This document shows positions 5,430-31,044 of a DNA stretch of 36,240 nt, in pieces. Every line of letters starts with the position of its first letter. Positions within the stretch are counted from its first letter, which is position 1. The DNA is taken from positions 1 through 36,240 of the IMG/VR virus record IMGVR_UViG_3300032665_000106, one strand, 5' to 3'. Source of the DNA: a virus. Made by a program: the position numbers and the translations under genes. Below the pieces are notes generated by a model. That model was given only the letters and a program-made list of their open reading frames with translations. It was not told the origin of the DNA and did not search any database.

Positions 5430-5707
5430 ACGAGCACCCCCAAGCCCTAGGGCAATTCATCTTTGTGCAAAAGGACGCCGCCCGGGAGACGATGGAGCAC
5501 GGCGTCATCATCCCCGCCAATGCGGAGCGCACACCCCGTTTCGGTCCCTCAGTGTTTGCGACGGTGGCAAGCGTGGGGGCGCGTTGCACCGTGCTCAAGC
5601 CGGGGGACCGAATCTGCCTCAAGGACATAGCGGGCGACGACCTACTCTACAATGAGCGAACTTACACCAGACTTAGAGAAAAAGACATCATCGGACGACT
5701 TGGTTGA
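5426..5707 (+). CDS. GroES-like (Cpn10) co-chaperonin
   Basis: The product is 93 residues, the normal length of a Cpn10 subunit. The fold's landmarks are in order: an N-terminal strand (LGQFIFVQKD), the mobile-loop position after ETMEHGVIIP, the FATVASVG strand and turn where GroES has G-x-V-x-A-V-G-x-G, then LKPGDRICLKDIAGDDL where GroES has V-G-D-x-V-[LF], and a closing TRLREKDIIG where GroES has [IL]-[MR]-E-x-[DE]-I-L. Phage GroES analogues (gp31 of T4, CocO of RB49) replace host GroES to fold capsid protein. Location in the head operon fits. The ATG at 5426 is chosen because it forms ATGA with the preceding stop and removes a non-homologous N-terminal extension. Confidence 0.75.
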   Translation: MNEHPQALGQFIFVQKDAARETMEHGVIIPANAERTPRFGPSVFATVASVGARCTVLKPGDRICLKDIAGDDLLYNERTYTRLREKDIIGRLG

Positions 5708-6419
5708 AACAAAGACCAAGATCGGCGTGTTAATAGCAACGCCGATGCGGGCCCTGACAGGCTTTGCCGAGCAGCACGCCGCCTTCCTTGCCGAGCTTGC
5801 CGCGCTTTCGACCGACGAGACCTGCCCGTACGAGTTCATCCAGGCGGTCGTGACGGGTGGCCGCACGTGGGGCAGGTGCCAGATGATCGCCAACGCCCGC
5901 AAGCTGAAGGCCAAAGAATACCCGAACTTGAAGTGGATTTACTGGCATGACGACGACGTGGAGCAGAGCGCGGCGGGCCTTCTTCGCCTCCTGTCCCACA
6001 AGCTGCCTGTCGTGGGAGCGATGTACACCGTGAAGGGGAAAGATCCCCACTGGTGCGCCAACTTCCTGCACGAGGTGGAACTCCAGAAGAACGGGCTCCT
6101 GCAGGTGTACGAGCTGGCGATTGGGGCGCTTCTCACGCACATCGAGGTTTACGACCACATTGAGAAGAAGTTTCCGGCCATCCTCTACACCGACCGCAAC
6201 ACGGGCGAGCGGCATAACGGCTACTTTCAGGAGGTGGTGATCGAGCGCGTGCCGTACAGCGAGGACTACTTCTTCTGCTGGCTCCTGCGGCACACGGGGA
6301 TCGGCATCTTTGCCGATACGGAACTGAAGCTCAAGCACCGCGACTCGGCCGGCAAGCTCTGGCCCGAGGAGTGGCCGCCCATCCCGATTGACGAAGTCGC
6401 CAAAGAGGCGACCGACTAG
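5652..6419 (+). CDS. GT-A-like glycosyltransferase 1
   Basis: 255 residues. A first beta strand KIGVLIATPMRA (about 23-34), an R-T-W-G-R-C-Q-M-I-A-N-A-R helix, and an acidic metal-site motif WHDDDVEQ (DxD at about 100-102) followed by SHKLPVVGAMYTVKG are features of phage and bacterial GT-A glycosyltransferases that bind a nucleotide-sugar through Mn/Mg. Sugar and acceptor cannot be read. The gene overlaps the GroES-like gene by 56 bases, abuts the next glycosyltransferase and is soluble, so it works in the cytoplasm, on virion protein or on surface-glycan precursors. First member of a 4.3 kb cassette. Confidence 0.75.
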   Translation: MSELTPDLEKKTSSDDLVETKTKIGVLIATPMRALTGFAEQHAAFLAELAALSTDETCPYEFIQAVVTGGRTWGRCQMIANARKLKAKEYPNLKWIYWHDDDVEQSAAGLLRLLSHKLPVVGAMYTVKGKDPHWCANFLHEVELQKNGLLQVYELAIGALLTHIEVYDHIEKKFPAILYTDRNTGERHNGYFQEVVIERVPYSEDYFFCWLLRHTGIGIFADTELKLKHRDSAGKLWPEEWPPIPIDEVAKEATD

Positions 6420-7088
6420 ATGAAGCTGACCGCGATCACCTGCACGACCCCCGAGCGCGGCGAGGCCATGGAGCTTTGCCGCCTGTACGTTGCGCGGCAG
6501 ACCAGGCCGCCCGACCAGTGGCTTATCTTGGACGGCCCCGAGCCCATGCAGAACAAGCTGGCGACGGCCATTGCCGAAGGGAAGGTCGAGGGCGACTACA
6601 TCATTTTCGCAGAGGATGACGATTGGTTCAGCCCGCATTGGTTCAAGTGGTGCGAGGACAAGCTCGCCAAGGGCTTCGACATGGTAGGGCAGGGGAACGC
6701 CCTCTACTACAACGTCTCCCATCGCTGGTGGTCCAACTGCGGCAACGTGCGCCACGCCTCGCTTTGCCAAACGGCGATACGCGCCAAGCTGCTCGCCCAC
6801 GTCTGGAACATCATCACCGACTTCAACTGCCCGTGGATCGACGTTCAGCTTTGGAACGTTTACTGCAACAAGTACCTTCACCTGCCGAGCGAGAAGGAAA
6901 TGCTGCTCGTTGGCATCAAGGGGCTCTGCAAGGGGTACAGCCGCGAGCACCGTCAGGTGGCCGGCGACTTGAACAAGGTGGACTACGACCTGTCAAAGCT
7001 GCGGGAGCTGATCGGCCCTGACGCCGAGAACTACGCGAGCGCATGGCACGGCGAGGAGGAGATGCTGCGGCTCGCAGGCGCTTTATGA
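6420..7088 (+). CDS. GT2/GT-A-like glycosyltransferase 2
   Basis: 222 residues. It opens with LTAITCTTPERGEAMELC, equivalent to the nucleotide-binding T-x(2)-R-x(4)-L start of GT2-type enzymes, continues with Q-W-L-I-L-D-G, and carries the metal motif FAEDDDWFSPHWF (E65-D66-D67-D68). A conserved GT2 trait is that an aromatic residue follows the DDD. Two Cys-rich and Trp-rich segments follow (HRWWSNCGNVRH, FNCPWIDVQLWN). The start is directly after the TAG of the first transferase (6417-6419). Acceptor and donor are unknown. Confidence 0.78.
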   Translation: MKLTAITCTTPERGEAMELCRLYVARQTRPPDQWLILDGPEPMQNKLATAIAEGKVEGDYIIFAEDDDWFSPHWFKWCEDKLAKGFDMVGQGNALYYNVSHRWWSNCGNVRHASLCQTAIRAKLLAHVWNIITDFNCPWIDVQLWNVYCNKYLHLPSEKEMLLVGIKGLCKGYSREHRQVAGDLNKVDYDLSKLRELIGPDAENYASAWHGEEEMLRLAGAL

Positions 7089-7236
7089 ACGTGTGCGTAA
7101 TAGGCCAGGGGGTACTTGCCGCGACGACCAAGGAGGCGTGCGCGACATCAAGCACATGGAGGCAATAGCCCGTGGCCGCGCCATCCCGCTCCCCATCATC
7201 ACCCACATCCGCGAATCCAATGAGTACCAAGCCTAG
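7085..7236 (+). pseudogene. Small gene broken by a one-base frameshift
   Basis: An ATG overlapping the preceding stop (ATGA 7085-7088) starts MNVCVIGQGVLAATTKEA, which reads like a Rossmann-type beta-strand and glycine loop, but the frame stops at 7168. Another frame from GTG 7138 continues with VRDIKHMEAIARG and then PLPIITHIRESNEY, stopping at 7236. Joining the two by one base back at GCG|TGC (around 7138) gives a 50-residue protein. I interpret it as one small gene with a one-base deletion, a sequence error or a -1 shift. It might be a trimmed nucleotide-sugar enzyme; function unknown. Confidence 0.4.
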
Positions 7237-7975
7237 CGTCGAGGTTCACACGCTCCGGTACGGGGACGACTGGCTTGTCCCGTACGTGATCCGGCACTAC
7301 CTGTCCTTTGCCGACAAGCTGGTCTTTCACGACGCGGGCGGCGGTGCGCCGATCCCGTTGAAACCCGGCGTCGAGGTCGTCCCGTGGGACTGCCCCGAGG
7401 TGAACGATCTCAAGTACGCCGAACTCCGCAACTCCTGCTGGAAGGGCACAAAGGCGGACTGGTGCATCGTGTGCGACTTGGACGAATTGCTGTACTTCCC
7501 GATGGGCGCCGAGGCGACCCTTGCCGAGTACGAGAAGATGGGGGCCGCGGTCCCGAAGCCCCACGGTTTCGAGATGTTCAGCGAGACCTATCCCACCGGC
7601 GGCGGGCAGATATGGGACGAGATCAAGATGGGTGCTCCCGACAACAAGTGGTACTCCAAGGCCATCCTGTTCAACCCGCGTCTCGTGTCCGACATGCACT
7701 ACGGCCTCGGCTCCCACGAGTGCGCCCCCTACCTGCACGACGGGCGCTCGTTCCACTGCGGGCAGCGTTGGCCGCACGCGAAGCCCCCGTGCTGGCTTCT
7801 CCACTGCCATCACATCGGCCCCGCCGAGGACATCGGAGCCAAGTACGACGCCAATATTACCCGTATGTGCAAGGAAAACAAGCAGAACCACTGGGGCAAC
7901 CTTGAACCGGGCCTAAAGCACGTTGCCGACAAGCGCGCCAACATTGTTCCCAACCTCCGTCAACTCATACCCTGA
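7220..7975 (+). CDS. GT2-family glycosyltransferase 3 (DLDE type)
   Basis: 251 residues from ATG 7220. The sequence HTLRYGDDWLVPYVIRHY, a strand with DKLVFHDAGGG, and the signature WCIVCDLDELLYFP (D86-L-D88-E89) match the GT2/GT92-like group in which a D-x-D-E-F/L binds the metal-sugar complex. Histidines near the C-terminus (LLHCHHIGP) are also usual there. Catalytic residues look intact. An upstream GTG (7172) is in frame but would add a Ser/Pro-rich segment lying over the broken gene, so I prefer 7220. Stop and next start share one base (TGATG). Confidence 0.75.
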   Translation: MSTKPSVEVHTLRYGDDWLVPYVIRHYLSFADKLVFHDAGGGAPIPLKPGVEVVPWDCPEVNDLKYAELRNSCWKGTKADWCIVCDLDELLYFPMGAEATLAEYEKMGAAVPKPHGFEMFSETYPTGGGQIWDEIKMGAPDNKWYSKAILFNPRLVSDMHYGLGSHECAPYLHDGRSFHCGQRWPHAKPPCWLLHCHHIGPAEDIGAKYDANITRMCKENKQNHWGNLEPGLKHVADKRANIVPNLRQLIP

Positions 7976-8463
7976 TGGGCTCCGTACGCTTTGGCATCCC
8001 GCGTGACTTGGTCCTGGCCCTCAAGGCCAAGTACAACGCGCACGACTTCTTTGAGACCGGCACGCTTGAGGGGCACACCTCGGCGTGGGCCGCGGATCAC
8101 TTCTTTCGGGTTACCACGGTGGACATCGTCGAGCACCCGAACGCCCCGGGAAACTTGGACGGCAAGATGAACGTCAAGCGCCACGTCGCGCCGTCCTCCA
8201 AGTTCCTGACGACCGAGCATTTCTACTACCCGACGCTTTTCTGGCTGGACGCGCACACGGACACGGACTGCCCGGTCCTGCTCGAGATCAAGGAGATCAA
8301 CCGCTCGGACGCCGACCACGTGATCTTGGTGGACGACGTCCGCCTGTTCGACAAGCTCCCCGACTGGCCGAAGCTGGAGAAGGTCTGCGTTGCGCTGCGC
8401 GACGGCGGCCGGCGCGTCACCGAGATCATTGAGGACGTAATCATAGCCACCCCATGCCCTTGA
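7975..8463 (+). CDS. Class I SAM-dependent methyltransferase-like protein
   Basis: 162 residues. The beginning has FFETGTLEGHTSAWAADHF (about 25-43), a glycine-containing motif I, followed by RVTTVDIVEH with the acidic residue expected after strand 2. A second motif YPTLFWLDAHTDTDCPVLLEI (about 85-103) matches the W-L-D-[AG]-H segment seen in a group of small methyltransferases found in glycan operons. The C-terminus has HVILVDDVRLF. It is shorter than a full 200-residue domain, but the core looks complete. It probably methylates a sugar or another small acceptor made by the neighbouring transferases, which is inference. Confidence 0.65.
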   Translation: MGSVRFGIPRDLVLALKAKYNAHDFFETGTLEGHTSAWAADHFFRVTTVDIVEHPNAPGNLDGKMNVKRHVAPSSKFLTTEHFYYPTLFWLDAHTDTDCPVLLEIKEINRSDADHVILVDDVRLFDKLPDWPKLEKVCVALRDGGRRVTEIIEDVIIATPCP

Positions 8464-9269
8464 TCGAAGCCGTCATTGGAGGCGGGCTAGGCAACAAGCT
8501 CTTTGGTTACTGCTTCGCTCGAGCCTATGCCGAAAAATACAACTGCGAGCTACACGTGCAGGGTGGCCTCTATCCGCAGAAGTGGAACATCATCTTTGAG
8601 GGCACGGACCATCCTCCGGTTACGCATAATCTTCCTATCCGGCAATCGTTCGACCTTGAGCAGTGGGACGGGCAAACCGACATACGCATCGAGGGGTTCT
8701 GCCAGCACCAAAAGAACCTAATCTACACGAGATCGCAGGTAAGGGAGTGGCTCAGGTTCAAGCCTCAGGTCGAGTACATGGTGAGCGGGATCAAGACCGT
8801 AGAAATCCTCTGCAACCAGCGCCTAGGGGACTATTGCCTGCCGTGCAACCCGTTCGCATGGGTGAGCCAGCAGTCCTATGTGGAGTGCTGCTGGCGCTAC
8901 GGGCTCGACCCCAACAAGATCACCTGGCAGGACGGCGACAACCACTACCCTTGGCCGGACCATGATGCGTCGCTTTTCAAGCGGCACGAGCACCATGCGG
9001 AGTTCGACGAGCGCATGGACTTCCTGCCCGACTTGGTCGTGATGATGCGTGCCAAGAACCTGCTGCGCGCCAACTCGACCTTTGGATGGTGGGCGCACGT
9101 CCTTGGCAACAATGAGCGCGTGTTCTGCCCCGACGTGACCAAGGTGGACGCGAACAAGGGAATCGTCGGCCAGCAACGCGTCCCGCAGTTTGTGCCGTTC
9201 GTCGAGGGGAACCACATGCCCGTCGTTCCGAACATTCCCTATCTGTCCGAGCTTCACCTTGCGCCATGA
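8454..9269 (+). CDS. GT11-like (alpha-1,2-fucosyltransferase family) enzyme
   Basis: 271 residues. The N-terminal motif GGGLGNKLFGYCFARAYAEK (about 9-28) corresponds to G-G-L-G-N-Q-M-F-Q-Y-x(2)-A-R-x-[LM]-A of GT11. Mid-protein ILCNQRLGDY (about 118-127) aligns with the donor-binding H-x-R-[RL]-G-D-Y, with Asn in place of the usual His. LLRANSTFGWWAHVLGN (about 203-219) aligns with the N-S-[ST]-F-S-W-W-A-A-x-L motif. GT11 enzymes transfer fucose from GDP-fucose to galactose. The altered His leaves donor specificity open. Overlaps the preceding gene by 10 bases and ends at an ATGA. Confidence 0.75.
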   Translation: MPLIEAVIGGGLGNKLFGYCFARAYAEKYNCELHVQGGLYPQKWNIIFEGTDHPPVTHNLPIRQSFDLEQWDGQTDIRIEGFCQHQKNLIYTRSQVREWLRFKPQVEYMVSGIKTVEILCNQRLGDYCLPCNPFAWVSQQSYVECCWRYGLDPNKITWQDGDNHYPWPDHDASLFKRHEHHAEFDERMDFLPDLVVMMRAKNLLRANSTFGWWAHVLGNNERVFCPDVTKVDANKGIVGQQRVPQFVPFVEGNHMPVVPNIPYLSELHLAP

Positions 9270-9370
9270 AGGGCGAATTGGTCGTTGCGCACTACAGGGA
9301 GAACGTGGCGTGGGAGTTTGAGCGCCTCTGGGCCTATCTCTGGCGCCCGCAGGACAAGCCCCGCCTCTAA
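9266..9370 (+). CDS. 34-residue stub resembling a glycosyltransferase N-terminus
   Basis: ATG 9266 forms ATGA with the fucosyltransferase stop. The peptide begins MKGELVVAHYRENVAWEFER, where V-V-A-x-Y-x-E-[ND]-x-x-W resembles the first strand and loop of DUF3431/GT-A-like proteins, then adds an aromatic helix and ends at TAA 9368-9370. Two bases later the FkbM gene starts. It is either a true micro-protein or what remains of a transferase lost by deletion. Coupling on both sides supports translation. No catalytic motif is left. Confidence 0.45.
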   Translation: MKGELVVAHYRENVAWEFERLWAYLWRPQDKPRL

Positions 9371-9372
9371 CC

Positions 9373-10002
9373 ATGGACATCCTATCCCACTACAAGCGCG
9401 TGATCGAGAACACCGACAATCCGGTTGTCCTGGAGCTGGGTGCCGCCGAGGGAGAGGACACCGTCCGCTATGTCGAGTGCCTGAAGACGCTTGGCCGTCC
9501 CTACCGTTACATCGCCTTTGAGCCTGACGAGCGGAACGTGTGGCACTTGAACCGCTTGGTCGAGAAGGGCGGATTTGAACTGGTGCCGCACGCCGTAGGG
9601 GATCGCAGCGGGCTGGTAGGCTGGCGGGCGTCGAATCACCCCTATTCAGGCAGCGTCAAGGAACCCAAGGAGCACATGGCCCTATGGCCCCACATCAGCT
9701 TTGCACCGCCGTCCCAAATTTACATGGAGGAGCTGGACAACGTCGCCGCCCGCATGGGGATCGACAAGGTGGACTGGATATGGTGCGACGTGCAGGGGGC
9801 CGAGGACTTGGTCGTCGCGGGCGGGCTAAAGACCTTTGCCAAGACGCGCTTCTTTTACACCGAGTACATCGAGGCCGAAGCCTACGCCGGCCAGATCGGG
9901 CGCGACGAGATCCACCGCCGCCTTCCCGGCAAGTGGCGCATAGCCGAGGACTACCGATCTTGGGACAAAGGCGGGGATTGTTTGTTTGAACGCTTGACAT
10001 AG
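9373..10002 (+). CDS. FkbM-family methyltransferase
   Basis: 209 residues. Motif I is VVLELGAAEGEDTVRYV (about 18-34), strand 2 ends in YIAFEPDERNVWHL with the ribose-binding acidic residues, then comes LVPHAVGDRSG. The FkbM signature VDWIWCDVQGAEDLVVAGG (about 133-151) is clear, matching the family's [IV]-D-x-[IL]-K-[IM]-D-x-[EQ]-G-x-E. These SAM-dependent O-methyltransferases act on sugars and polyketides and are frequent in phage glycan cassettes. It closes the cassette. Its last codons contain TTGACA (9994-9999), a match to a -35 box for the capsid unit. Confidence 0.82.
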   Translation: MDILSHYKRVIENTDNPVVLELGAAEGEDTVRYVECLKTLGRPYRYIAFEPDERNVWHLNRLVEKGGFELVPHAVGDRSGLVGWRASNHPYSGSVKEPKEHMALWPHISFAPPSQIYMEELDNVAARMGIDKVDWIWCDVQGAEDLVVAGGLKTFAKTRFFYTEYIEAEAYAGQIGRDEIHRRLPGKWRIAEDYRSWDKGGDCLFERLT

Positions 10003-10163: not shown

Positions 10164-11072
10164 ATGGCAACAGGAGTAGTCACACTACCTCCACATTACG
10201 AGCCGGATTTCGATGCCGTTTGGCATGAGATCATGGCTCAGCAGATCGACCATCGCCTCGCTGGTTACTACATCAGCGATGTCGTCGTCGGCAACTCGAA
10301 GCGGTACAGCCAGATGGGTTCGCAGTCCTACGCGATGAGCCAGAAGACGGCTCGCGCGGCTTGGACGGAACCGTCTGATGTCCCTTCCGCAATCCGCTGG
10401 GTGCTCCCCACGGGTTACCAGAAAGCAACGTGGATCGACGAGGATGACGCGGCCCTTCTGGGCTCGCTCCCCGATCCGCAGAACCAGATTGCGATGAACC
10501 ACGCCATCGCCGTCAACCGCCTGAAGGACCAGCTGATCATCAACAACGCGATCGGCGTCAACTTCACGGGTGTCTCGGCCTCGACCCAGACGGCGCTTCC
10601 CGCCGCGCAGCAGGTCGGCGTCCAGTTCCCGGGCGCAACGAACACGGGCATGACCCTCGCCAAGATACTCCAGGCGCTGTTCATCCTCGATTCCAACGAC
10701 GTTCCCGAGATGGACCGCGTCATGGTCTACGCCGCGAAGCAGCTCTACGACCTGCTCCTCAACGTGGATCAGGTTGACTCGGTGCTGTACAACGACGTTC
10801 GCGCGCTGATGAAGGGTCGCTTCGACGAGTTCGCGGGTTTCCGCTGGATTCGCACGCAGCTCCTCCCGACGGTCGGCACGCCGTCCATCCGCTCCTGCAT
10901 CGCCTACCAGAAGAAGTTTGTGCTTTTGGGCGAGCTGAAGGGGCAGAGCACGAAGATCGACATCCTCCCGCAGCAGTCGCACGCGATTCAGGTCCGCACG
11001 ACCTACACCGCCAACGCGACGCGGCTTGAGGAGGCGGGCGTCGTCCTCATCTCCACGGATGAGACGCAGTAA
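10164..11072 (+). CDS. Major capsid protein
   Basis: 302 residues. The protein has an N-terminal helix (PDFDAVWHEIMAQQIDHRL), strand-rich middle, ALFILDSNDVPEMDRVMVYAAKQLYDLL helix-strand and a VALLGEL-like strand near the C-terminus, consistent with the HK97-fold capsid proteins of podoviruses. The length, lack of N-terminal signal, position after scaffold and co-chaperonin, own leader and following terminator all agree. It would form the icosahedral shell. The ATG has no Shine-Dalgarno, which is surprising for the most abundant protein. The identification rests on context plus general pattern; motif-level certainty is moderate. Confidence 0.83.
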   Translation: MATGVVTLPPHYEPDFDAVWHEIMAQQIDHRLAGYYISDVVVGNSKRYSQMGSQSYAMSQKTARAAWTEPSDVPSAIRWVLPTGYQKATWIDEDDAALLGSLPDPQNQIAMNHAIAVNRLKDQLIINNAIGVNFTGVSASTQTALPAAQQVGVQFPGATNTGMTLAKILQALFILDSNDVPEMDRVMVYAAKQLYDLLLNVDQVDSVLYNDVRALMKGRFDEFAGFRWIRTQLLPTVGTPSIRSCIAYQKKFVLLGELKGQSTKIDILPQQSHAIQVRTTYTANATRLEEAGVVLISTDETQ

Positions 11073-21854: not shown

Positions 21855-21973
21855 TGCCCGAGCAACTGACAGACGACGTGCAGGCCATAATTGACGCCGC
21901 GGAGACGGGCGAAAAGGGGTGCCTTTTGCCCGAGCGCGACGACCCACGGGAGGGGGATGATGAAGGCGAATGA
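21854..21973 (+). CDS. Small acidic peptide 1 (39 aa)
   Basis: ATG 21854 shares a base with the preceding stop (TGATG). The product has 14 Asp/Glu out of 39: MPEQLTDDVQAIIDAAETG, then a single Cys in EKGCLLPERDD and an acidic tail. Too short for family assignment. It overlaps the next micro-gene by 17 bases and the ATP-grasp gene follows. I cannot tell if it is a regulator, a substrate of the neighbouring enzyme or a plain virion peptide. Coupled start makes translation likely. Confidence 0.45.
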   Translation: MPEQLTDDVQAIIDAAETGEKGCLLPERDDPREGDDEGE

Positions 21974-22046: not shown

Positions 22047-23322
22047 CGAGCGCACGGCACTTGTCGTTTGTAGTGGGCTCTTTGTGTCCATCGCGGAACG
22101 TTTAGGGAGGGATTTTTCAAGAGTATATTTGTACGTTCCCTACGCTGGCAACTTCCCGACGATGAACAAGGGGATGCTTGGGCATGGTCTAAAGAACGTG
22201 GAGCGGGTGGACGGGGTGTTCGGCAAGCACTTCGACTCCATCGACCTTTTCGTTTTCGTGGACCTCGGACACGCAGCCCTTCAGATTTACCTTGAGAAAC
22301 TGGGCCGCAGGGTTTGGGGCCCACGTAACGCCGAGGAGCAGGAAATATACCGCGAACTCTGCAAGGAAAAGATGGAGGAATTGGGGCTCCCCGTGCAGCC
22401 GTGGACGATCGTAAAGGGCGTCACGGAATTGGAGGCCCACCTGCGCGCCCACAAGAACCAGCTTGTCAAGATCGACAAATGGCGCGGGGTGACGGAAACC
22501 TTCTTCGCCAACGACTTCGAGACAGTCGAGCCCAAGGTCCACGCCATTGCGGAAACGCTTGGGCCGTTCAAGGAGGAGCTGGAGTTCATTGTGGAGGACG
22601 AGCTACCCGACTGCGTAGAGGCGGGCATCGACACGTTCACCGTTGACGGGCGATACCCCGAGCAAACCCTTGTTGGAATCGAGGTTAAGGACTGCGGCTA
22701 CCTAGGACAATTCGTGTCCTACCCCTCAATCCCCGAGGAGTTGCGGCGATGGAACGACTCATTTGCCGCATTGTTTGCGGTCTACGGCGCGCGCAGCACC
22801 ATCTCCAACGAGGTCCGGATCGGCAAGGACAAGGTGCCCTACATGATCGACGCGACGATCCGCGCCCCCTCGCCGCCGTCCGAACTCATGCAGGAGCTTT
22901 GGACCAACTTCTCGGAGATCATTTGGGAGGGGGCCGACGGCAACCTAGTCGAGCCCATCCCCGCCGCAAAGTGGGGCGTCGAGGTCATCGTCAAGAGCGC
23001 ATGGGCCGAGCACAACCTGCAACTCGTGGACTACCCCGAGGAGTTTGATAATCAGATCAAGCTCTACAACAAGGTCGTTGTGGACGGCAAGCGGTACGTG
23101 GTCTGCCAGGACGACGAAATGACCGAGATCGGCGCCGTCGTCGGTTGGGGCGACACCCCCGAGGAAGCCTTTGACCACTGCCGGAAGGCGGGCGAATCGC
23201 TCAAGGGCTACGGCATCAAGTTTGAGATGGGGGCCGCCGACAAAGCCTACGAGCAGATCGAGGAACTGGCGGCGCTCGGCGTCTCGCCCTTCAAACTTGA
23301 AAAGCAAGCAAATAACAAATAG
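22012..23322 (+). CDS. ATP-grasp enzyme, PurD (GAR synthetase)-like
   Basis: 436 residues from ATG 22012; an earlier in-frame ATG (21970) would add a Thr/Arg-rich stretch that is only the shadow of the acidic peptide. Domains: a pre-ATP-grasp Rossmann-like domain (ALVVCSGLFVSIAERLG at about 16-32, to GRRVWGP at about 98-104), ATP-grasp lid and lysine strand NQLVKIDKWRGVTETF (about 149-164), metal-binding strand NEVRIG...YMIDATIR (about 266-284, E267 and D280), and a C-terminal PurD-type domain with IGAVVGWGDTPEEAF. ATP-grasp enzymes join a carboxylate to an amine using ATP. Similar genes occur in phage structural regions with unknown substrate. Confidence 0.75.
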   Translation: MRTPTSTASNLSERTALVVCSGLFVSIAERLGRDFSRVYLYVPYAGNFPTMNKGMLGHGLKNVERVDGVFGKHFDSIDLFVFVDLGHAALQIYLEKLGRRVWGPRNAEEQEIYRELCKEKMEELGLPVQPWTIVKGVTELEAHLRAHKNQLVKIDKWRGVTETFFANDFETVEPKVHAIAETLGPFKEELEFIVEDELPDCVEAGIDTFTVDGRYPEQTLVGIEVKDCGYLGQFVSYPSIPEELRRWNDSFAALFAVYGARSTISNEVRIGKDKVPYMIDATIRAPSPPSELMQELWTNFSEIIWEGADGNLVEPIPAAKWGVEVIVKSAWAEHNLQLVDYPEEFDNQIKLYNKVVVDGKRYVVCQDDEMTEIGAVVGWGDTPEEAFDHCRKAGESLKGYGIKFEMGAADKAYEQIEELAALGVSPFKLEKQANNK

Positions 23323-23331
23323 GAGCACACC

Positions 23332-24048
23332 ATGTCAGTTTCCTCACAAGCACCCTTTTGCCAGTACACCGTGACGGTATTGTCGCAGACGCTTACGGTC
23401 ACGTTCCCGTTTGCTCAGGCGTCGGATCTGGCGGTCGTGGACGGAGCGGTAACGTGCCTCTTGGGGGGCGACTACACGGTCACGGGCGGCGGCTACAATG
23501 CCGCGAACCAGATGCAGACCGGCAGTATAACCATCGTCAGCGACACGGCCCCGGGTGCCGCCAACATACAGATTGGCGACATCATCTCCATTTCTCTGAA
23601 CGTCACGGCGAACCAGACGACCAGCTTCATATCGACGGGGCTAATGACGCCGGCGATGATCGAGCAGGACGACGACAAGCTGACGCAGCTCATCAAGCAG
23701 GACAGGCAGGGCGAGTACAACCCCTTCCCGGCGGCGGGGGCGATCATGTCCACGTCGCTCGGCACACAGATCATCAGCGGAACGACGGGGGCGATCTACC
23801 TTGGATGGATCACTGCGCAGACGGGCGGCATAAAGACCTCGATTGACTCGCTGAACATCGTCGGCATTTCGACGCTCAACCTGCCGCTCCTCATCCAGAC
23901 GACGATCAGCTACACGGGCGGCGGTTACGTGCTGCAAACGTGGATGCTTCGCCCGATGCAGATTGGCGATCCGTCGTCAAGCGTGGCGGGAGCGTTCATC
24001 GTTCCGGTCACGAATCCTAACTCGCTAATCTGGCAGGCCGTCCTGTAA
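23332..24048 (+). CDS. Tail fibre anchor / adaptor (T7 gp17 N-terminus-like)
   Basis: 238 residues. The start CQYTVTVLSQTLTVTFPFA with LAVVDG and GGDYTVTGGGYN resembles the N-terminal tail-binding domain of T7-type fibres (Y-x-x-[DN]-[GA] ... F-x-[VF]-x-F-[PE] ... V ... G-x-[DE]-Y-T-[VL]). Midway TSFISTGLMTPAMIEQDDDKLTQL also follows that domain in podoviral fibres. The rest is beta-rich. It has AGGAG 8 bases before its ATG, one of the few good Shine-Dalgarno sites here. It likely docks the fibre or spike of the next gene to the tail. Confidence 0.7.
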   Translation: MSVSSQAPFCQYTVTVLSQTLTVTFPFAQASDLAVVDGAVTCLLGGDYTVTGGGYNAANQMQTGSITIVSDTAPGAANIQIGDIISISLNVTANQTTSFISTGLMTPAMIEQDDDKLTQLIKQDRQGEYNPFPAAGAIMSTSLGTQIISGTTGAIYLGWITAQTGGIKTSIDSLNIVGISTLNLPLLIQTTISYTGGGYVLQTWMLRPMQIGDPSSSVAGAFIVPVTNPNSLIWQAVL

Positions 24049-26057
24049 TGCCTTCTACCGTCAGCCCGAATCTCAAGTTTAACCAGACGGCAGTCCGGTC
24101 GGGCGGGGCGCATACGAACGCGACGACGCAGCAGCCGGCAAGCGGGGGCACGGGTGGCGGCACCGTCAATAGCGTCGGTGCGGGCACAAACGTAAGCATA
24201 GGTGGCACGGCGACAAATCCCGTTGTCAACGTGCCAAACCTAGCGGGCGACGTTACGGGCGCCATTGCGACAAACACCGTTGCGTTGCTTTCAGGCGTTG
24301 GGTCTATCCTGCAAACGCCCGTCGGCTACGCCACAGGCGGCAACATCCAAGTCCGCTTTGACCTTGGCAGCTTTGCCTACATTGGGCTGACGGTGAACGC
24401 GTCCTTTAGCCCAAGCGGGTCGGCTGGTATCGCTGCGGGCAGGGTGCAAACGATTGACCTGACAAACACGACAGGCGGCACGCTAACCCTTACTTGGAAC
24501 GCTTCGTGGAAGCTGGCCGACGGCGCGCTGCCGACCAGCATCACGGCGGGGTCATCCTACCGCATTGAGCTTCGCTGCGGCAGCACAACGGAGGGCAGCA
24601 TCATCGCTTCTTGGTTTCAGACGGGCAGCGGGATCACGCAACTAACGGGAGACGTTACGGCCGGGCCGGGCTCCGGATCCCAAGCGGCGACGATCACCGC
24701 GGGCGCCGTGACCTTGGCCAAGATGGCGAACCTCCCGGCGTATTCGGTGATGGGGAACAACACCGCCGGCGCCGCGGCGCCCCTCGCGCTCACGGAAAAG
24801 CAATTCCGGACGATGTTTTTCCAGCAGCAATTTTACGTGGATGACTATATCACCGCGGCCGGCGGGGTGGTGCTAACCGGGATCAATGCGGCTATCTCGG
24901 ACTTGAACACGGCCACCAAGGGGGTGCTCGTGTTCGGCCCGGGCACCTACGCGGTCGCCGGGGCAATCAACGCGATCACGGCCTCCGCCTATGTGAAGGG
25001 GTGCGGGTGGTACATCACGCAACTCGCCCAAGGCAACTTTGATGGGCTCACCTTCACCTCGGCAAACCCGTGCACCCTACGGGATATGTGGATCTCCTGC
25101 GGGGCCTCAAACCAATGCGTGGTGTTCGGCAACGCCGGCACGGCCAACTCGGGCTCCCTGGTCGATTCGATCCAGACCACCGGCGGTTTGGCGGGGATCT
25201 CGTGTTGGAACACCACCAACCAATTCACGATCTCCAATTGCACCCTCGGGTGCACCCACAACATCCTTGTGGGGGGCTACGTGAACGCCGGCGTGGTGAC
25301 CACCGGCGTGCGCAGCGCGTGCATCATCCAATGCAACAACATCGGCGGGGGGTCGACCAACGGGATTTACGCGCTCCACCCGGACGGGCTCTCAATCCAA
25401 AACAACCAAATTGTTTCGACCACCACCGCGATCAATATGGTGTTCCCGAACCAATCGGGCCGGAGCGATCTTTGGGTGGTGGGCAACCACATAGAGTCCG
25501 CGGACGGGCTCTACATGAACACCACGAACCTCACGGGGGCCACCACCTCGAGGTTTAACAACATCGTGATTGTGGGGAACGAGTTCGGCACAACCGCGAG
25601 CTACGGCGTGCACACCGATGCCCACGCCACCACGAGCCCCAACTTCTGCTTGGCCCACATGGTGATCACCGGCAACGTGTTTACCAACTGCCCCCTCGGG
25701 CCCATCAACATCTATTCGGTTTATGGGGGATCCATCCAGGGCAACCTCATCCAGACGAACGGGAGCGTGGACAACATCTACATCGACTCCTCGTGCAAAT
25801 ATGTCCGCTGCGACCCCTCATCAAACGGTCTCATGCTCGGCACGGATACCGCCTTTGACGGCCTCGGGCTCGGGATCTTCGACATGCAGGACCACACCGT
25901 GGCCGGCCTACAGCAAAACAGCCGGATGAAGGGCACCACCACGTGGGTGAGCGATTCCAACCAAACCCTCGCCGCGGGGATCGGGGCGGTGGTGGCCGGC
26001 GGCGGTGCCAATGTCGTCCCTGTTTTTAGCGACGGAACCAATTGGAGAATCGGATGA
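24048..26057 (+). CDS. Tailspike with parallel beta-helix
   Basis: 669 residues. An N-terminal Gly/Thr/Asn-rich part (1-260) contains [20 protein letters not shown] and ends in [16 protein letters not shown]. From about residue 262 ([20 protein letters not shown]) a right-handed beta-helix begins, with successive turns of type x-N-x-I-x-I-x-x-N ([50 protein letters not shown]). The fold is that of pectate-lyase-like depolymerase spikes, which bind or degrade capsular or O-antigen polysaccharide; no catalytic acid pair is evident. The start overlaps the anchor stop (TAATG). Codon usage differs in the helix part (see findings). Confidence 0.78.
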
Positions 26058-26584
26058 AAAAACTCTACGAATACCTGCCCCTGCTGCTCTTGGCCGTCGC
26101 GCTGCTCTTGCCGCAGTTTGTGCGCAGCCAGTCGGCCCCTGTCGCGGGCGGGCGTCAGTATGCGGTAGTGCTGGCGTCGATCCCTACGCCGACCCCTACG
26201 CCTAGTCCGACGCCCAGCCCTACCCCGACGCCGTCGCCTACCCCGACACCTTCCCCGACACCGACCCCCAGCCCGACGCCAACCCCCACAAGCTCGCTCA
26301 CGGTTTCCGCAAGCCCGACAAGCATCTTCGGCAGCGGGGTTTACTCGGCAAATACCAATACGACGATGGCGACACCTGCGGGCGGCGTCGGCCCCTACAC
26401 CTATTCGTGGACCGTGCAGAGCGGGACTACGGTTGGCATTATGGGCAACCTTACCGCTACCGTCTCAGCCAGCTACGGGGGCGTGGCGGGCACTTATACG
26501 AGCGTCCTCCTCTGCACCGTAACCGACTCCCTTAGCCACACGGCAACCTGCACCGTCAACTCAACGATCATCCTTTCACAATGA
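26054..26584 (+). CDS. Exported fibre-like protein with signal peptide and PT-repeat spacer
   Basis: 176 residues from ATG 26054 (ATGA overlap, GGAG upstream). A Sec-type signal is clear: [20 protein letters not shown], charged n-region then a 12-residue hydrophobic core, cleavage expected near FVRSQS. It is followed by a Pro-Thr-Ser spacer (44-79) like those in extracellular bacterial proteins, then an Ig/PKD-like beta domain with [12 protein letters not shown] near residue 115 and paired Cys in [16 protein letters not shown] phage virion assembled in the cytoplasm normally carries no exported part. The domain may be a receptor-facing or cell-surface protein. Confidence 0.72.
26183..26290 (+). 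repeat. Pro-Thr/Ser coding repeat
   Basis: Residues 44-79 of the preceding protein are an almost perfect alternation of Pro with Thr or Ser, coded by imperfect ccn-acg/agc/tcg triplet pairs. The DNA shows no perfect tandem unit, so the repeat is under protein-level rather than slippage selection. It would form a stiff extended spacer. Confidence 0.85.
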
Positions 26585-28776
26585 AGAAGCTACTCCCATT
26601 CCTCCTTGCGGTGTTTTTGCCGCTCACCTCGCAGGCGCAGCATCAGGCGGTGACGCTTCTGCCGAACGGCCTAGGCGCGGGCACGCTGAACACGGCGGGC
26701 ATCTCGTACTACTCTATGGGGCCGTTCACCTACGATTTCACGGGAAGCACGCTCCTTAACGCAGGGCTTGTGGCGACAGGCACGACGATCACGCAGACCA
26801 TCACGCAGGCCAACAGCTTCGTGGCGGGCCAGCCCGTGACGATCAATAGCAGCGGCGTTTGGGTCGGCGCTTCGGCCAATTCAACGATTGCGCTGGCAAA
26901 CGCCCTCGGTGTCGTGTCCTCGACCAACCTCAGCGGCACGCAATTTACCGTCGTCCTAAACGGCGTGTGCGTCGTGAACGGTGGAAGCTTCACGGTGGGG
27001 GCAATCTACTACGTGCCGCTATCGGCAGGCATCGTCACAAGCACGGCTCCGTCCAGCACCGGCCAGTATGTGTATCCGCTGGCGACGGCGGTGTCGGCGG
27101 GGGTGCTGTGGGTTTCGACCTCGACGCCCTCGGTGGTCACAAACTCCCTTGGTAGCTCGGGCGCATACACGCTGCTCGCCAACAATACCAACGCGACGGC
27201 TCCCGCTGCGGCGCTTCAAAACAGCATCATCCTCGGCACTCCCTCCATCACCGACACGGGCATTGGCATACAGGAGACCAACAGCGTCACGGGTTATTTC
27301 CAAAACCTAATCCAGAACACGTCGAACAACGCTGCGGCTTCTGCCGATACCGTGGTCGCTAACAACCTCGCAACCGGGTCCAACTACTACGGCGACTTTG
27401 GGATCAATAGCAGCAGCTTTACGGGCACGGGCAGCTTCAACCTTGCTAACGCGGTTTACCTCTACGCGATTCCTGGCGACCTGGTTCTGGGGACGTGGAA
27501 CACAAGCGGTACGACGCGAATCGTTGCGGCAAGCAACACGGGGACAAGCAGCGCCGACATTGCCGACTTCGTTGTGTCGGGCGAAGCCCTCAGCGGCATG
27601 CTGTCGATCGGCAACAATACGACGGTTACAGGCTATCAGTTGGAGCTTCACGGGAGCACGCCGATTGTTGCCAACGGCGGCGCGGGCATACAAGTCAACA
27701 CGCAGCTAACGGCTGCTGCTACCAACACGTACAACTTTCTTAACTTTACGCCGACGTTCAACACTTCGACTTACACGGGCAACTCGCTTAACTCGATCAA
27801 CATTGGCACCGCGACGGTCAGCACGACCGGCGGCGGCACGCTGACGGGCGGCTACCAGATCAACGTCGCTGCCCCCGCAGCGGGACAGGCTGGAGCACTC
27901 AACATTGCCAGCGGCGCGGTGAACCTCGGGAGCGGCGCAATCACAAGCTCGGGCAGCGTCGTCCTTAACTCAGCCACGGGAGGCTCTCAGGGTGCAGGGA
28001 CGATCAACGCCACCGGGCTATACGTGAACGGTGCCGCCGTAAGCTCGCCGCTTGCATCAAACAACACATGGACGGGCACGAACACGTTTAACAATACGGT
28101 GAGCGGTACAGGTATAACTTCGCTATTCGCCAGCCCGCCCGCGATTGGCGGTACGGCTGCTGCCGCTGGTAGCTTTACCACGCTCTCCGCATCTTCCACC
28201 GTCAGCGGTACGGGTTTTTCTACCTATCTGGCTTCGCCCCCTGCGATTGGCGGTACGGCTGCTGCCGCTGGTAGCTTTACCACGCTTGCGGCAAGTTCCA
28301 CGCTCAATGTCACCGGCACCTCGACGCTGACGGGCAACGTTACCTTTGGCGGCAATCTCACAAGCGCCGGTTCACTTACGTTTCAGACCAACGGCACGAC
28401 GACGGCGCTAACCATGGACGCCAGCCAGAACGCGACGTTCGCGGGGAAAGTCACCTCATCCAAAGCCTCCATAAGCGGATATTCATCCCTCACGGAATCT
28501 GCTAACGCAGTTACCATCGACTGGTCTCTAGCCAACACCTTTGCGCTCACGCTGAACGGCAACCTGAACACGGTCACGTTCAGCAATGCGGCGAGCGGTG
28601 AGACCATCGTGGTGGCGATCACCAACACGGCGTCCAACTACACCGTGACTTGGGGTAATTCGATCAAGTGGGTGGGTGCTTCCCAGCCCGTCCAGACCAT
28701 AGGCGCCCACACCGACGTTTGGACGATCATCGACGTGAACGGCACCTACTACGGCAGCGTGGTGCAGAACTTCTAA
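26581..28776 (+). CDS. Exported tail-fibre-like protein with signal peptide
   Basis: 731 residues, ATG 26581 inside the preceding stop (ATGA). N-terminus [20 protein letters not shown] is a canonical type I signal with S-Q-A before the cleavage site. Residues 20-200 form a beta-rich part; the middle (200-480) is Thr/Asn/Ser/Gly-rich; from about 500 it has typical trimeric tail-fibre repeats ([20 protein letters not shown] twice) and a C-terminal head domain with [16 protein letters not shown]. Such P-P-A-I-G-G-T repeats are known in phage fibres. The combination with a signal peptide is the surprising part. Host-surface export or an unusual virion route are both possible. Confidence 0.75.
28141..28286 (+). 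repeat. Two 44-bp exact direct repeats in the fibre gene
   Basis: Copies at 28141-28184 and 28243-28286 are identical over 44 bp and lie 102 bp (34 codons) apart, coding the [13 protein letters not shown] segment of successive fibre repeats. DNA identity beyond what protein conservation needs suggests recent duplication or gene conversion. Confidence 0.85.
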
Positions 28777-28779
28777 GCC

Positions 28780-29760
28780 GTGAGAAAATTACCAACGTGG
28801 CTGGCCCTGTTTTTGGTGCTATGCGCGCCGCTGTTTGCCTGTGGTGCCTCGGGTGGTTCCGGGGCTGGTTCGGGCAACGGCCATGCAATTCTGGCAACAT
28901 CCCCGTTTCCATTTTCGTTTTGGAAAAACTCTGGTCCCGTTGCAACTCCATCGGTCCACGTTGTTGTAGTGGGTGCCGGTGGTGGTGGCGGTGGATACGC
29001 TTATGGCGGCGGCGGTGGTGGAGGCCAGGTTATCACTACTTACGATTTAGGGGGGTCTTCTTATTCCGTGACCGCGGGCACTCCCATAACGATCACCATC
29101 AACTCGGGTGGTGCGGGCAGTACGACTAGCGGAACTCAGGGCTCTACGGGAGGTAGTTCTGTTTTTGGATCTTTGACGGCAACGGGCGGCGGCGGCGGTG
29201 GATCTTTCACCAATGGCTCTGGTGTCTCGGCCGTCAACGGAGGCGGTGGAGCCGGAAACGGCTCAACCATGCAGTCCGGGGGCGGCACAACCGGGGGAGG
29301 GTATGCCGGAGGATCTGGATCTGTAGGGGGGACCCCTGGCGGCGGCGGCGGTGGGTCTAGTGCTGGTGTCGGCGCTAATGCCTCGAGCGTAAACGGGGGT
29401 AATGGGGCAAACGGGGTGTCATCCAGCATCAGCGGGTCGGCGGTTACTTACGGGGGCGGGGGAGGCGGTGGAAACGATGGCGGGTCTTTGGGGTCTGCCG
29501 GTACAGGGGGAACAGGAGGAGGCGGGGCCGGGGGGCACTCAGGAAACGGGGCCTCTGGCTCCGCGAACACTGGAGGAGGCGGTGGTGGGGCGGCGTATAA
29601 TTCGGCGCCATATAACGGCGGTGCTGGCGGCTCCGGCATTGTGATCGTTTCTTATCCCAACACCTACAGAACCGCGACGGTGACAGGAAGCCCCGGCTTC
29701 TCAAATACCGGGGGAAATTACGTTTATACTTTCACCGCATCTGGTACCTTTACCCCATAA
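28780..29760 (+). CDS. Glycine-rich fibre-tip-like protein with lipoprotein-like signal
   Basis: 326 residues from GTG 28780, three bases after the preceding stop. N-terminus: VRKLPTWLALFLVLCAPLFACGAS, basic start, 15-residue hydrophobic core and L-F-A-C lipobox-like cleavage site (Cys21), so either lipoprotein or type I signal. The body (from about residue 62) is a poly-glycine domain (HVVVVGAGGGGGGYAYGG, many GGGGG runs) ending SGIVIVSYP and a terminal YVYTFTASGTFTP. The same glycine-rich domain with G-I-V-I-x-[RS]-Y and T-x-S-G-T-F ends occurs in phage receptor-binding tips and bacterial surface proteins. The third consecutive gene with an export signal. Confidence 0.72.
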   Translation: MRKLPTWLALFLVLCAPLFACGASGGSGAGSGNGHAILATSPFPFSFWKNSGPVATPSVHVVVVGAGGGGGGYAYGGGGGGGQVITTYDLGGSSYSVTAGTPITITINSGGAGSTTSGTQGSTGGSSVFGSLTATGGGGGGSFTNGSGVSAVNGGGGAGNGSTMQSGGGTTGGGYAGGSGSVGGTPGGGGGGSSAGVGANASSVNGGNGANGVSSSISGSAVTYGGGGGGGNDGGSLGSAGTGGTGGGGAGGHSGNGASGSANTGGGGGGAAYNSAPYNGGAGGSGIVIVSYPNTYRTATVTGSPGFSNTGGNYVYTFTASGTFTP

Positions 29761-29773
29761 CCGTTGGAAACCC

Positions 29774-29827
29774 ATGACAGAGCAGCCCGTGTTCAACTTC
29801 ATGGTCGATAAGGGCTCTGCCAACTAG
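29774..29827 (+). CDS. Possible 17-codon micro-ORF before the holin-like gene
   Basis: ATG 29774 with a GGAAA four bases upstream starts MTEQPVFNFMVDKGSAN and stops at TAG 29825-29827. It is isolated (14 bases after the previous stop, 38 before the next start), so support is weak. It may be a leader peptide or chance. The rest of this 105-base gap shows no stem-loop or promoter I trust. Confidence 0.2.
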   Translation: MTEQPVFNFMVDKGSAN

Positions 29828-29865
29828 GTTGCCTTTCCCGCCTCGACGTCCCATACCCTATTGCC

Positions 29866-30114
29866 ATGCAGCCGAGTTTCCTGACAGACGCGAACGGCAA
29901 GCCTAGCCACACGAGGCTTTTGGTAGCGGTCTGCGTGCCGCTGCTTGTTCTTGTCCCGCTGGCCGTGTGGGCGTTCCTAGCCGTCTCCAAGGGCCAGTTT
30001 CTCGCCATTGACCCAACGGTGCCACTCTACATCGGTACGTCCAATGGCATCATTCTGGGGTATGCGGGGTACAAAGCGTACAACGAGCCTGACCCGACAC
30101 CCCCCGCCAAGTAG
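29866..30114 (+). CDS. Small two-helix membrane protein, holin-like
   Basis: 82 residues. Cytoplasmic start QPSFLTDANGKPSHTRL, a first hydrophobic helix (about 18-43, LLVAVCVPLLVLVPLAVWAFLAV), a loop KGQFLAIDPTV and a weaker second helix (about 56-70, GTSNGIILGYAGYKAY), then a short Pro-rich tail. The F-x-D-x-x-G-K-x-S-x-x-R start is shared with phage membrane proteins annotated as holins or holin accessories. It precedes a 3TM-type holin, so the pair may be holin and regulator. No Shine-Dalgarno. Confidence 0.55.
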   Translation: MQPSFLTDANGKPSHTRLLVAVCVPLLVLVPLAVWAFLAVSKGQFLAIDPTVPLYIGTSNGIILGYAGYKAYNEPDPTPPAK

Positions 30115-30116
30115 CC

Positions 30117-30575
30117 ATGTGGAGCGTCCTGTCACCGATCCTAGGGCCGATAATCGACAAGGCCCTCGGCTTTATTCCCAACCCAGAGGAGCGCCAAAAG
30201 GCCAAGCTCGACCTGGAGGCTCAACTTCAAGCGGCGGTCCTACAGGCCCAACAGTCCCAACTGGACATCGACAAAGCCGAGGCCGCCTCACCTTCAATGT
30301 TTGTGGCGGGATGGCGGCCGGCGGTGGGCTGGATATGCGGTTTCGGGTTCGCGTGGCAGTTCGTGCTGCAGCCCTTTATCGCCTACGGGATCTCGATCTA
30401 TTCGACGTACTCCCATCAGGCCATCCCGCCGCTCCCCACGCTGGACACGCAGACCATGATGACGCTGCTCCTGTCGCTCCTCGGGCTTGGCGGCATGAGG
30501 ACCGTTGAGCGCGTCCAAGGCGTTGCCCGCGACAACCTTTCATCGCCCGCACCGGGCATCAAAACCACCGACTAA
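30117..30575 (+). CDS. 3TM-type phage holin
   Basis: 152 residues. An amphipathic start (VLSPILGPIIDKALGFIP), a Gln/Ala-rich helix (about 25-58), then FVAGWRPAVGWICGFGFAWQF (about 62-82) followed by two more hydrophobic segments (PFIAYGISIY and MMTLLLSLLGLGGM). S-x-[FV]-[VR]-[AS]-G-W-R-P-[AF]-[VI]-G-W-x-C is the hallmark of the three-helix holin superfamily found also in gene transfer agents. It would make the membrane lesion that starts lysis. Start two bases after the previous stop; no endolysin is found next to it. Confidence 0.8.
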   Translation: MWSVLSPILGPIIDKALGFIPNPEERQKAKLDLEAQLQAAVLQAQQSQLDIDKAEAASPSMFVAGWRPAVGWICGFGFAWQFVLQPFIAYGISIYSTYSHQAIPPLPTLDTQTMMTLLLSLLGLGGMRTVERVQGVARDNLSSPAPGIKTTD

Positions 30576-30576
30576 A

Positions 30577-30756
30577 ATGACACACACCGACATCGTCCTG
30601 CTCCTTGCCAGCCATGCCGCCGCCTTTGTTGGCGGCTCCGTCCTTACATGGAAACTGCGCGGCCATTTGTCCGACCTCGAAAACAGCTTCCACGCCAAGG
30701 TCGCCGCCGTTGACGCCAAGGTCAGCACCGTCGTCGCGAACGTAAAGAAGCCGTAA
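30577..30756 (+). CDS. Small single-span membrane protein, possible lysis accessory
   Basis: 59 residues from ATG 30577, one base after the holin stop. One N-terminal hydrophobic helix (about 5-25, IVLLLASHAAAFVGGSVLTW) then a short charged coil (LSDLENSFHAKVAAVDAKV). The layout (N-terminal membrane anchor plus coiled periplasmic part) is like an inner-membrane spanin subunit, although it is shorter than most. Spanin assignment is inference; no outer partner is adjacent on the same strand. Confidence 0.55.
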   Translation: MTHTDIVLLLASHAAAFVGGSVLTWKLRGHLSDLENSFHAKVAAVDAKVSTVVANVKKP

Positions 30757-30763
30757 AATCGCC

Positions 30764-30781
30764 CTACGTCTTTTGACGTAG
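30764..30781 (+). promoter_or_regulatory. Perfect hairpin in the intergenic gap
   Basis: CTACGTC (30764-30770), loop TTTT, GACGTAG (30775-30781), a 7-bp palindromic stem, 14 bases before the ATG of the next gene and directly after the small membrane gene. No T-run follows, so it is not a terminator. It could be a binding site or mRNA end-protector. Confidence 0.4.
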
Positions 30782-30795
30782 ACGACTACGTTGCG

Positions 30796-31044
30796 ATGAC
30801 ACCCGAACCAGACAGTCCTCACGGCATGGGATACGATCCCAATTCCTATGACTCCTCATTCGCACGCATCTTCCAGCGCATGGACACGCAGGATGCCACG
30901 GCTAACCGCATTGAGGCAAAGCTCGATGCTTATGTGGCGAAAACGGACGCACTCGAAAAGGAGAAGTGGCTTCATAGGGGTTTCAGCCTGTCAGGGGTGC
31001 TTGCCGCGGCGCATCATGTGTTCACCCGCATCGGCGGGGCATAG
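30796..31044 (+). CDS. Small charged protein in lysis region, unknown
   Basis: 82 residues: an acidic, Pro/Ser-rich start, a helix SFARIFQRMDTQDATANRIEAKL-type (about 21-43) and a weakly hydrophobic segment near the C-terminus (GFSLSGVLAAAHHVF, about 63-77). The helix followed by KEKW and a hydrophobic end recalls XhlA-like holin accessory proteins, but the match is weak. It abuts the metallophosphoesterase (TAG then GTG). Confidence 0.5.
   Translation: MTPEPDSPHGMGYDPNSYDSSFARIFQRMDTQDATANRIEAKLDAYVAKTDALEKEKWLHRGFSLSGVLAAAHHVFTRIGGA

Follow-up and report, generated by a model that had tools for sequence, protein, structure and literature searches.

Predicted export signals on tail-fibre-type genes of an uncultured T7-like phage and of at least eight other phage lineages

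The uncultured phage of IMG/VR virus record IMGVR_UViG_3300032665_000106, whose 36,240 bases are the whole stretch of DNA analysed here (the window), carries bacterial export signals on runs of tail-fibre-type genes, as do eight or more other lineages of phages, and the proteins of these runs probably leave the cytoplasm. Judged from the sequences, the export step taken by itself is very likely; that the exported proteins also act on an envelope receptor or glycan, as in receptor masking and superinfection exclusion, is a reading which we favour tentatively and would rate a little below an even chance. The prevailing view is that tailed-phage fibres are cytoplasmic products assembled before lysis, and the data suggest that phage fibre proteins also have a use outside the cytoplasm which has gone unrecognised. 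If the proposal is true, the recurrence of a signal-bearing class would mean that phage fibre modules also serve as envelope or secreted proteins, with consequences for the annotation of fibre-like genes, for the mining of receptor-binding proteins, and for views of superinfection exclusion and debris avoidance.

Three signal-bearing genes at the end of the fibre operon

The window has the gene order of a T7-like podovirus, from portal through major capsid, tail tubular proteins A and B, and internal virion protein to fibre adaptor (PHROG 332, 3437, 394, 376, 418, and 1640, in that order); an Erf annealing protein, a RecE/YqaJ-type exonuclease, and a DNA methyltransferase are encoded on the opposite strand. 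The features needed here are as follows, with a slash marking predicted cleavage.

668-2458: portal
10164-11072: major capsid
from 11835: tail tubular A
from 12747: tail tubular B
from 15985: internal virion protein
23332-24048 (+): fibre adaptor, T7 gp17 N-terminus-like (phrog_1640 tail protein, E=4e-6, N-terminus), without signal peptide
24048-26057 (+): cytoplasmic fibre protein without signal peptide; shares 4 bases with gene 1
26054-26584 (+): gene 1, predicted exported protein, Pro/Thr linker and Ig/PKD-like
26054-26128 (+): signal peptide of gene 1, score 43.5; predicted cleavage VRS/Q, an [AGS]/Q site
26581-28776 (+): gene 2, predicted exported fibre-like protein with conserved mature N-terminus, beta-repeat body, and fibre-tip domain
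26581-26637 (+): signal peptide of gene 2, score 37.2; predicted cleavage SQA/Q
28507-28773 (+): C-terminal phage fibre-tip domain of gene 2 (alignments A1/A3/A7, AlphaFold, BFVD)
28780-29760 (+): gene 3, predicted exported glycine-rich tip-like protein (PF21722, E=2.1e-17; phrog_2295, E=2e-30)
28780-28839 (+): signal peptide of gene 3, score 45.0; LFA/C by eye, lipobox doubtful
28939-29655 (+): Gly_rich_2 domain of gene 3, residues 54-292
29866-30114 (+): small membrane protein, encoded after the signal-bearing run and before the holin; hydrophobic segment scoring 57.9, no convincing cleavage region
30117-30575 (+): holin GTA_holin_3TM (PF11351, E=8e-17; phrog_3427), lysis module after the signal-bearing run

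Signals were scored with a purpose-written n/h/c-region scorer that looks for a positively charged n-region, a hydrophobic core of 7-18 residues, and small residues at -3/-1 within 14-45 residues, a score of at least 30 counting as a pass. On the two 49-kb stretches of E. coli K-12 used for calibration, all 20 annotated exported proteins passed, as did 6 of the 63 other proteins, every one an inner-membrane protein and none cytosolic. Genes 1, 2, and 3 all carry Sec-type signal peptides by this measure, the cleavage site of gene 3 being uncertain; among the roughly 31-35 window genes read from their usual start, the only further pass is the membrane protein at 29866, and the gene at 21970 reaches 31.1 with an alternative start only. 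When every six-frame ORF of the window is scored, 5 of 210 pass, four of which are genes 1-3 and 29866, and genes 1-3 are the only clear signal-peptide genes of the structural module. The reading frames and starts that the preliminary description gave for 26054, 26581, and 28780 are correct, the calibrated scorer bears out its signals, and its argument that three such genes in a row are no accident holds up as well, given the rarity of passing ORFs and the conservation described below: the three adjacent signals are not due to chance. Nor does the result depend on the choice of start codon, since the starts are coupled to the preceding stops and relatives start at the same place. Of 25 signals, 20 share the [AGS]/Q cleavage pattern.

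Spacings between the fibre gene and gene 1, genes 1 and 2, and genes 2 and 3 are -4, -4, and +3 nt, and the genes are translationally coupled. Because of this coupling, because no promoter-like site was found in window 23200-31000, and because the holin comes next, the products would act late, at the envelope and lysis stage. Gene 3 starts with GTG (N-terminus MRKLPTWLALFLVLCAPLFA/CGASG); the starts of genes 2 and 3 have no clear Shine-Dalgarno motif, and the GC3 of gene 3 is lower (0.54), that of genes 1 and 2 being unremarkable. The LFAC box noted earlier in gene 3 does not stand: PLFAC fails PROSITE PS00013 (P at -4) and homologues have no Cys there, so that gene 3 is not a conserved lipoprotein.

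The three proteins, 176-731 aa long, were all called fibre-like in the preliminary description, which fits the PPAIGGT repeats of gene 2 and the glycine-rich tip of gene 3, but not gene 1, a Pro/Thr-repeat linker followed by an Ig/PKD-like domain (Pfam match sub-threshold). In gene 2 a conserved mature N-terminus (VTxxPNGxGxGT...ISYY) is followed by a repetitive body, and at the C-terminus comes a domain that AlphaFold models with pLDDT 90. This domain has 201 BFVD matches with E<=1e-3, including fibres of Roseobacter phage CRP-4 and Synechococcus phages S-SM2 and S-CBP2; its best PDB match is a phage capsid spike (E=1.3e-3), with tailspike TSP4 of CBA120 also found, at weak E-values. Together with the A1/A7 alignments and the PHROG tail fibre matches of the homologues L003 and L056, this identifies it as a genuine phage fibre-tip domain. 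Gene 3 matches Gly_rich_2 (PF21722) at 64.3 bits against a Pfam gathering cut-off of 24.3, and its signal is followed by FPFSFW, a motif that recurs as FPYSFW/FPFSFW after the signal peptide in homologues from G001, G002, and the unrelated phage G014; AlphaFold gave no usable fold for gene 3 (pLDDT 36). A PDB sequence search provided no lead, a scan with the mature N-terminus of gene 2 recovered only known relatives, and one with the N-terminus of a gene 3 homologue had no matches.

Conservation of the signals and exchange at the adaptor

Every readable relative keeps the signals, down to 45% adaptor identity and over a nucleotide divergence of 20-50% across the comparisons. Specifically, i) G001, whose portal is 90% identical to that of the window, has signals on gene 1 (MKYLKTLVPVCLMFALIFAPSFLTFG/Q), gene 2, and gene 3 (MKRVLKRLPRFVSALLFTASFSFASA), the last being the same in G003; ii) G002 (portal 52%) has them on gene 2 (MKKLLLLSLLALAGSALWDTTGNA/Q) and gene 3 (MKSLFSYLTALFMSAAMAVA); iii) G021, which was located via its adaptor alone (45% identity) and not via a signal-bearing gene, has a gene 2 signal (MKRLFLFLLTALGLSA/Q) behind its fibre; and iv) counted by gene, the signal of gene 2 is kept in G001, both G002 alleles (A and B), L132, and G021, that of gene 3 in G001, G002, and an unrelated phage, and that of gene 1 in G001. 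The adaptor stays upstream of signal-bearing genes in G001, G002/L132, and G021, and the G021 homologue of the window fibre at 24048-26057 (L139:10698-13100) matches PHROG tail fibre and tail spike families. In simulations of drift at the observed divergence a passing signal was retained in only 7-29% of runs per comparison, and in 3-12% for the two G002 alleles described below. Because drift so seldom keeps a scoring signal, the suggestion that the signals are non-functional relics is rejected. The preliminary description had also looked to homologues lacking the signal as evidence against its proposal, and here the outcome is divided: the signal persists in close relatives, but is lacking from distant proteins whose only shared part is the tip domain, those of the cultured phages checked among them.

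A gene list of G002 gives the appearance of a tandem duplication of adaptor and gene 2, an interpretation we abandoned: the ends of the contig overlap and represent two alleles of one locus with flanks 97-100% identical. The block in which the alleles differ takes in the adaptor together with ~35 codons at the start of gene 2, with ~47% nucleotide identity in the signal part, and both alleles encode complete signals (MKRLLFCFLLSGPIAFA/Q and MKKLLLLSLLALAGSALWDTTGNA/Q). L132, a contig assembled independently and binned with an Armatimonadetes MAG from a fen, has arisen by recombination within the adaptor, and in it the 3′ half of the adaptor stays with its gene 2 N-terminus; in G002 and L132 alike, gene 2 directly follows the adaptor. 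As a host pointer, the Armatimonadetes bin of L132 is only a hint.

In L003, L030, and L132, adaptor alleles are strongly divergent within one phage population, both flanks being identical; because the alleles differ so strongly between identical flanks, the sequences suggest frequent exchange at the fibre adaptor. G001-G003 encode a further putatively exported phage protein, a small lipoprotein (...GLTAC / ...ALTAC) beside their lysis genes (L002:2118-2588, L003:2956-3384), which was not seen there in the window.

Recurrence in unrelated phages and likeness to known fibres

A scan with the tip-domain alignment found 80 loci, of which 9 have a convincing signal directly before the tip-domain protein and 62 complete ones, many of them near-copies, do not; one of ten automatic signal calls (L068) was discarded as an internal false match. 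G004 and G012-G018 have the same tip domain behind a signal, mostly in runs of 2-4 signal-bearing genes whose content varies and whose other members carry LamG and GDSL lipase, SASA esterase, or Gly-rich domains. Outside the lineage of the window, the loci with signals belong to unrelated phages, a portal match, and a weak one, being found only in G018. Rows with and without a signal are interspersed on the tip-domain tree; parsimony counts 7 changes, but no more than 2 are forced by well-supported branches. None of the six cultured phages with the tip domain that were checked has a signal, and a search for a cultured phage with signal-bearing homologues found none. No unsignalled copy of the tip domain was found in any of the signal-bearing phages searched. 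Because each phage has the domain solely in signalled form, the signal-bearing tips are not spare decoy copies, and the earlier suggestion of a decoy loses favour if the decoy is taken as a copy of the tip on the virion itself.

Three loci may be recorded here in their own right. The G013 run of three signal-bearing genes (L043:3704-7628) lies in an apparent head-gene cluster, an assignment that PHROG matches did not bear out, with no recognisable fibre or lysis module adjoining. G018 encodes a signal-bearing 212-aa protein (MKKLLVSTALLLGLVAPAFA/Q; L079:2777-3415) near its major capsid gene, with no cultured-phage match. In an Armatimonadota genome, L159 (G157:C251) joins a signal-like N-terminus and a phage fibre-tip domain (E about 1e-20) in one chromosomal protein, so the tip domain also occurs on predicted exported cellular proteins; the gene adjoins another signal-bearing gene and GalT- and PIN-like genes (by eye only).

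Tail fibres with a homologous or structurally matching tip (PHROG 9017, 7760, and 22179; Roseobacter CRP-4/CRP-603, Caulobacter Lullwater, Microcystis Mel-JY34) are flanked, like the genes described here, by the virion genes on one side and the lysis module on the other. The cultured examples examined have no signal peptide, whereas here the tip lies behind a signal and the neighbours are signalled too. Tailspike esterases and lectin-like spikes contain the domain types (GDSL, SASA, LamG) that are encoded next to the tip-domain gene in the related runs with signals; known spikes are put together on the virion while still in the cytoplasm, but the spike-type domains here carry export signals. 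Like the glycine-rich distal tip adhesins of the Gly_rich_2 (PF21722) or S16 gp38 type, gene 3 is a glycine-rich repeat protein closing a fibre operon; it differs from them in having a signal peptide and an FPF/YSFW motif at the mature N-terminus. The signal-bearing class is a novel variation within known fibre and tip families. In the open-access literature we found no description of signal peptides on tailed-phage tail-fibre-type genes; what turned up was no more than citations of SignalP-type tools or treatments of lysis genes.

Possible roles of the exported proteins

We favour, tentatively, a scheme in which the distal part of a late tail-fibre operon, genes 1-3, would have been converted to encode exported proteins. 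Each would be translocated across the inner membrane before lysis by a normal N-terminal Sec-type signal, with signal peptidase I cleaving the products of genes 1 and 2 to leave Gln as the new N-terminus, and all three would reside in the infected cell's periplasm or envelope, for which the sequences give strong support. There the fibre-tip, glycine-rich tip, lectin, and esterase modules might bind or alter a surface glycan or protein receptor during its periplasmic assembly, and remain on envelope debris at lysis, so that both the cell and its fragments would stop absorbing virions, amounting to superinfection exclusion and debris masking. We prefer action on a receptor or glycan because the cargo is adhesin-, lectin-, and esterase-like, because the run precedes the lysis genes, and because of the T5 precedent: Llp is a periplasmic phage lipoprotein that blocks the receptor FhuA, and proteins of superinfection exclusion keep phages from adsorbing to debris as well (PMC9586334). 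The likeness is that of a phage protein, here a predicted exported one, acting in the envelope at or against a receptor, and an Llp-like working of the products of genes 1-3 is possible by this analogy; the difference is that Llp is a small lipoprotein without a fibre domain, whereas these are larger fibre and tip proteins of a late operon, without a conserved lipobox or lipid anchor. Weighing against the favoured role, superinfection exclusion would call for earlier expression than a late operon gives, and neither a conserved lipid anchor nor an outer-membrane secretion route was found in the window. That gene 2 binds the receptor of its own phage has to be assumed, since its tip does not copy the one on the virion fibre.

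Close in probability to the favoured envelope role, though doubtful, is delivery to virions at lysis: the proteins would fold and undergo processing in the periplasm, then attach to the adaptor of completed virions at holin opening or just after lysis. Genes 1-3 stand where Microcystis phage Mel-JY34 and Caulobacter phage Lullwater have virion fibres, which favours a virion role, as do the signalled-only state of the tip domain in each signal-bearing phage, the direct succession of adaptor and gene 2 in G002/L132, and the tailspike-type enzymes on signal-bearing neighbours. Adaptor, signal, and first mature residues are moreover swapped as one block, the 3′ half of the L132 adaptor keeping its gene 2 N-terminus; but such block exchange may be plain linkage, in the window and in G021 the adaptor is also followed by a fibre without a signal, and we know of no tailed phage that adds Sec-exported fibres. 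The corresponding proposal of a second fibre-assembly route in tailed phages, whereby Sec-exported, periplasm-matured distal fibre and tip proteins would join virions only at holin opening or after lysis, seems somewhat less likely still.

It is unlikely that the genes are cargo for the host or its community, exported adhesins or glycan-active accessory genes that would alter the surface of the infected cell or lysogen (conversion, biofilm, public goods) with no part in adsorption. The chromosomal Armatimonadota protein with the same signal and tip architecture, the integrases in G013 and G016, and the variable content of the runs agree with such a use; against it, no integrase was found in the window, G001, G002, or G003 (all possibly incomplete), and the genes lie inside a late structural operon with coupled starts, with only gene 3 deviating in GC3. 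The fibre-operon position would suit hydrophobic N-termini that stay uncleaved and serve virion assembly or oligomerisation with no export, and signal peptides can fail when cytoplasmic folding outpaces targeting. This is nevertheless quite improbable in view of the complete n/h/c architecture with its prevalent [AGS]/Q site, the preservation of differing primary sequences as signals, and the homologous fibres of cultured phages, which have no such N-terminus. Wrong starts or chimeric non-phage DNA might be suspected where there is no cultured relative and two genes start without a clear Shine-Dalgarno motif, yet an artefact is scarcely credible: the relatives already contradict it, with the same order in several contigs and in an independent MAG assembly, starts are coupled to upstream stops, and the signal residues are conserved at the protein level.

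Apart from the fibre operon, a run of sugar-modifying genes lies inside the head module (window 5652-10002), with two GT2-like genes, weak Anp1 and GT11 matches, and an FkbM methyltransferase, of which FkbM alone is above its cut-off; these genes might modify surface glycans or virion proteins.
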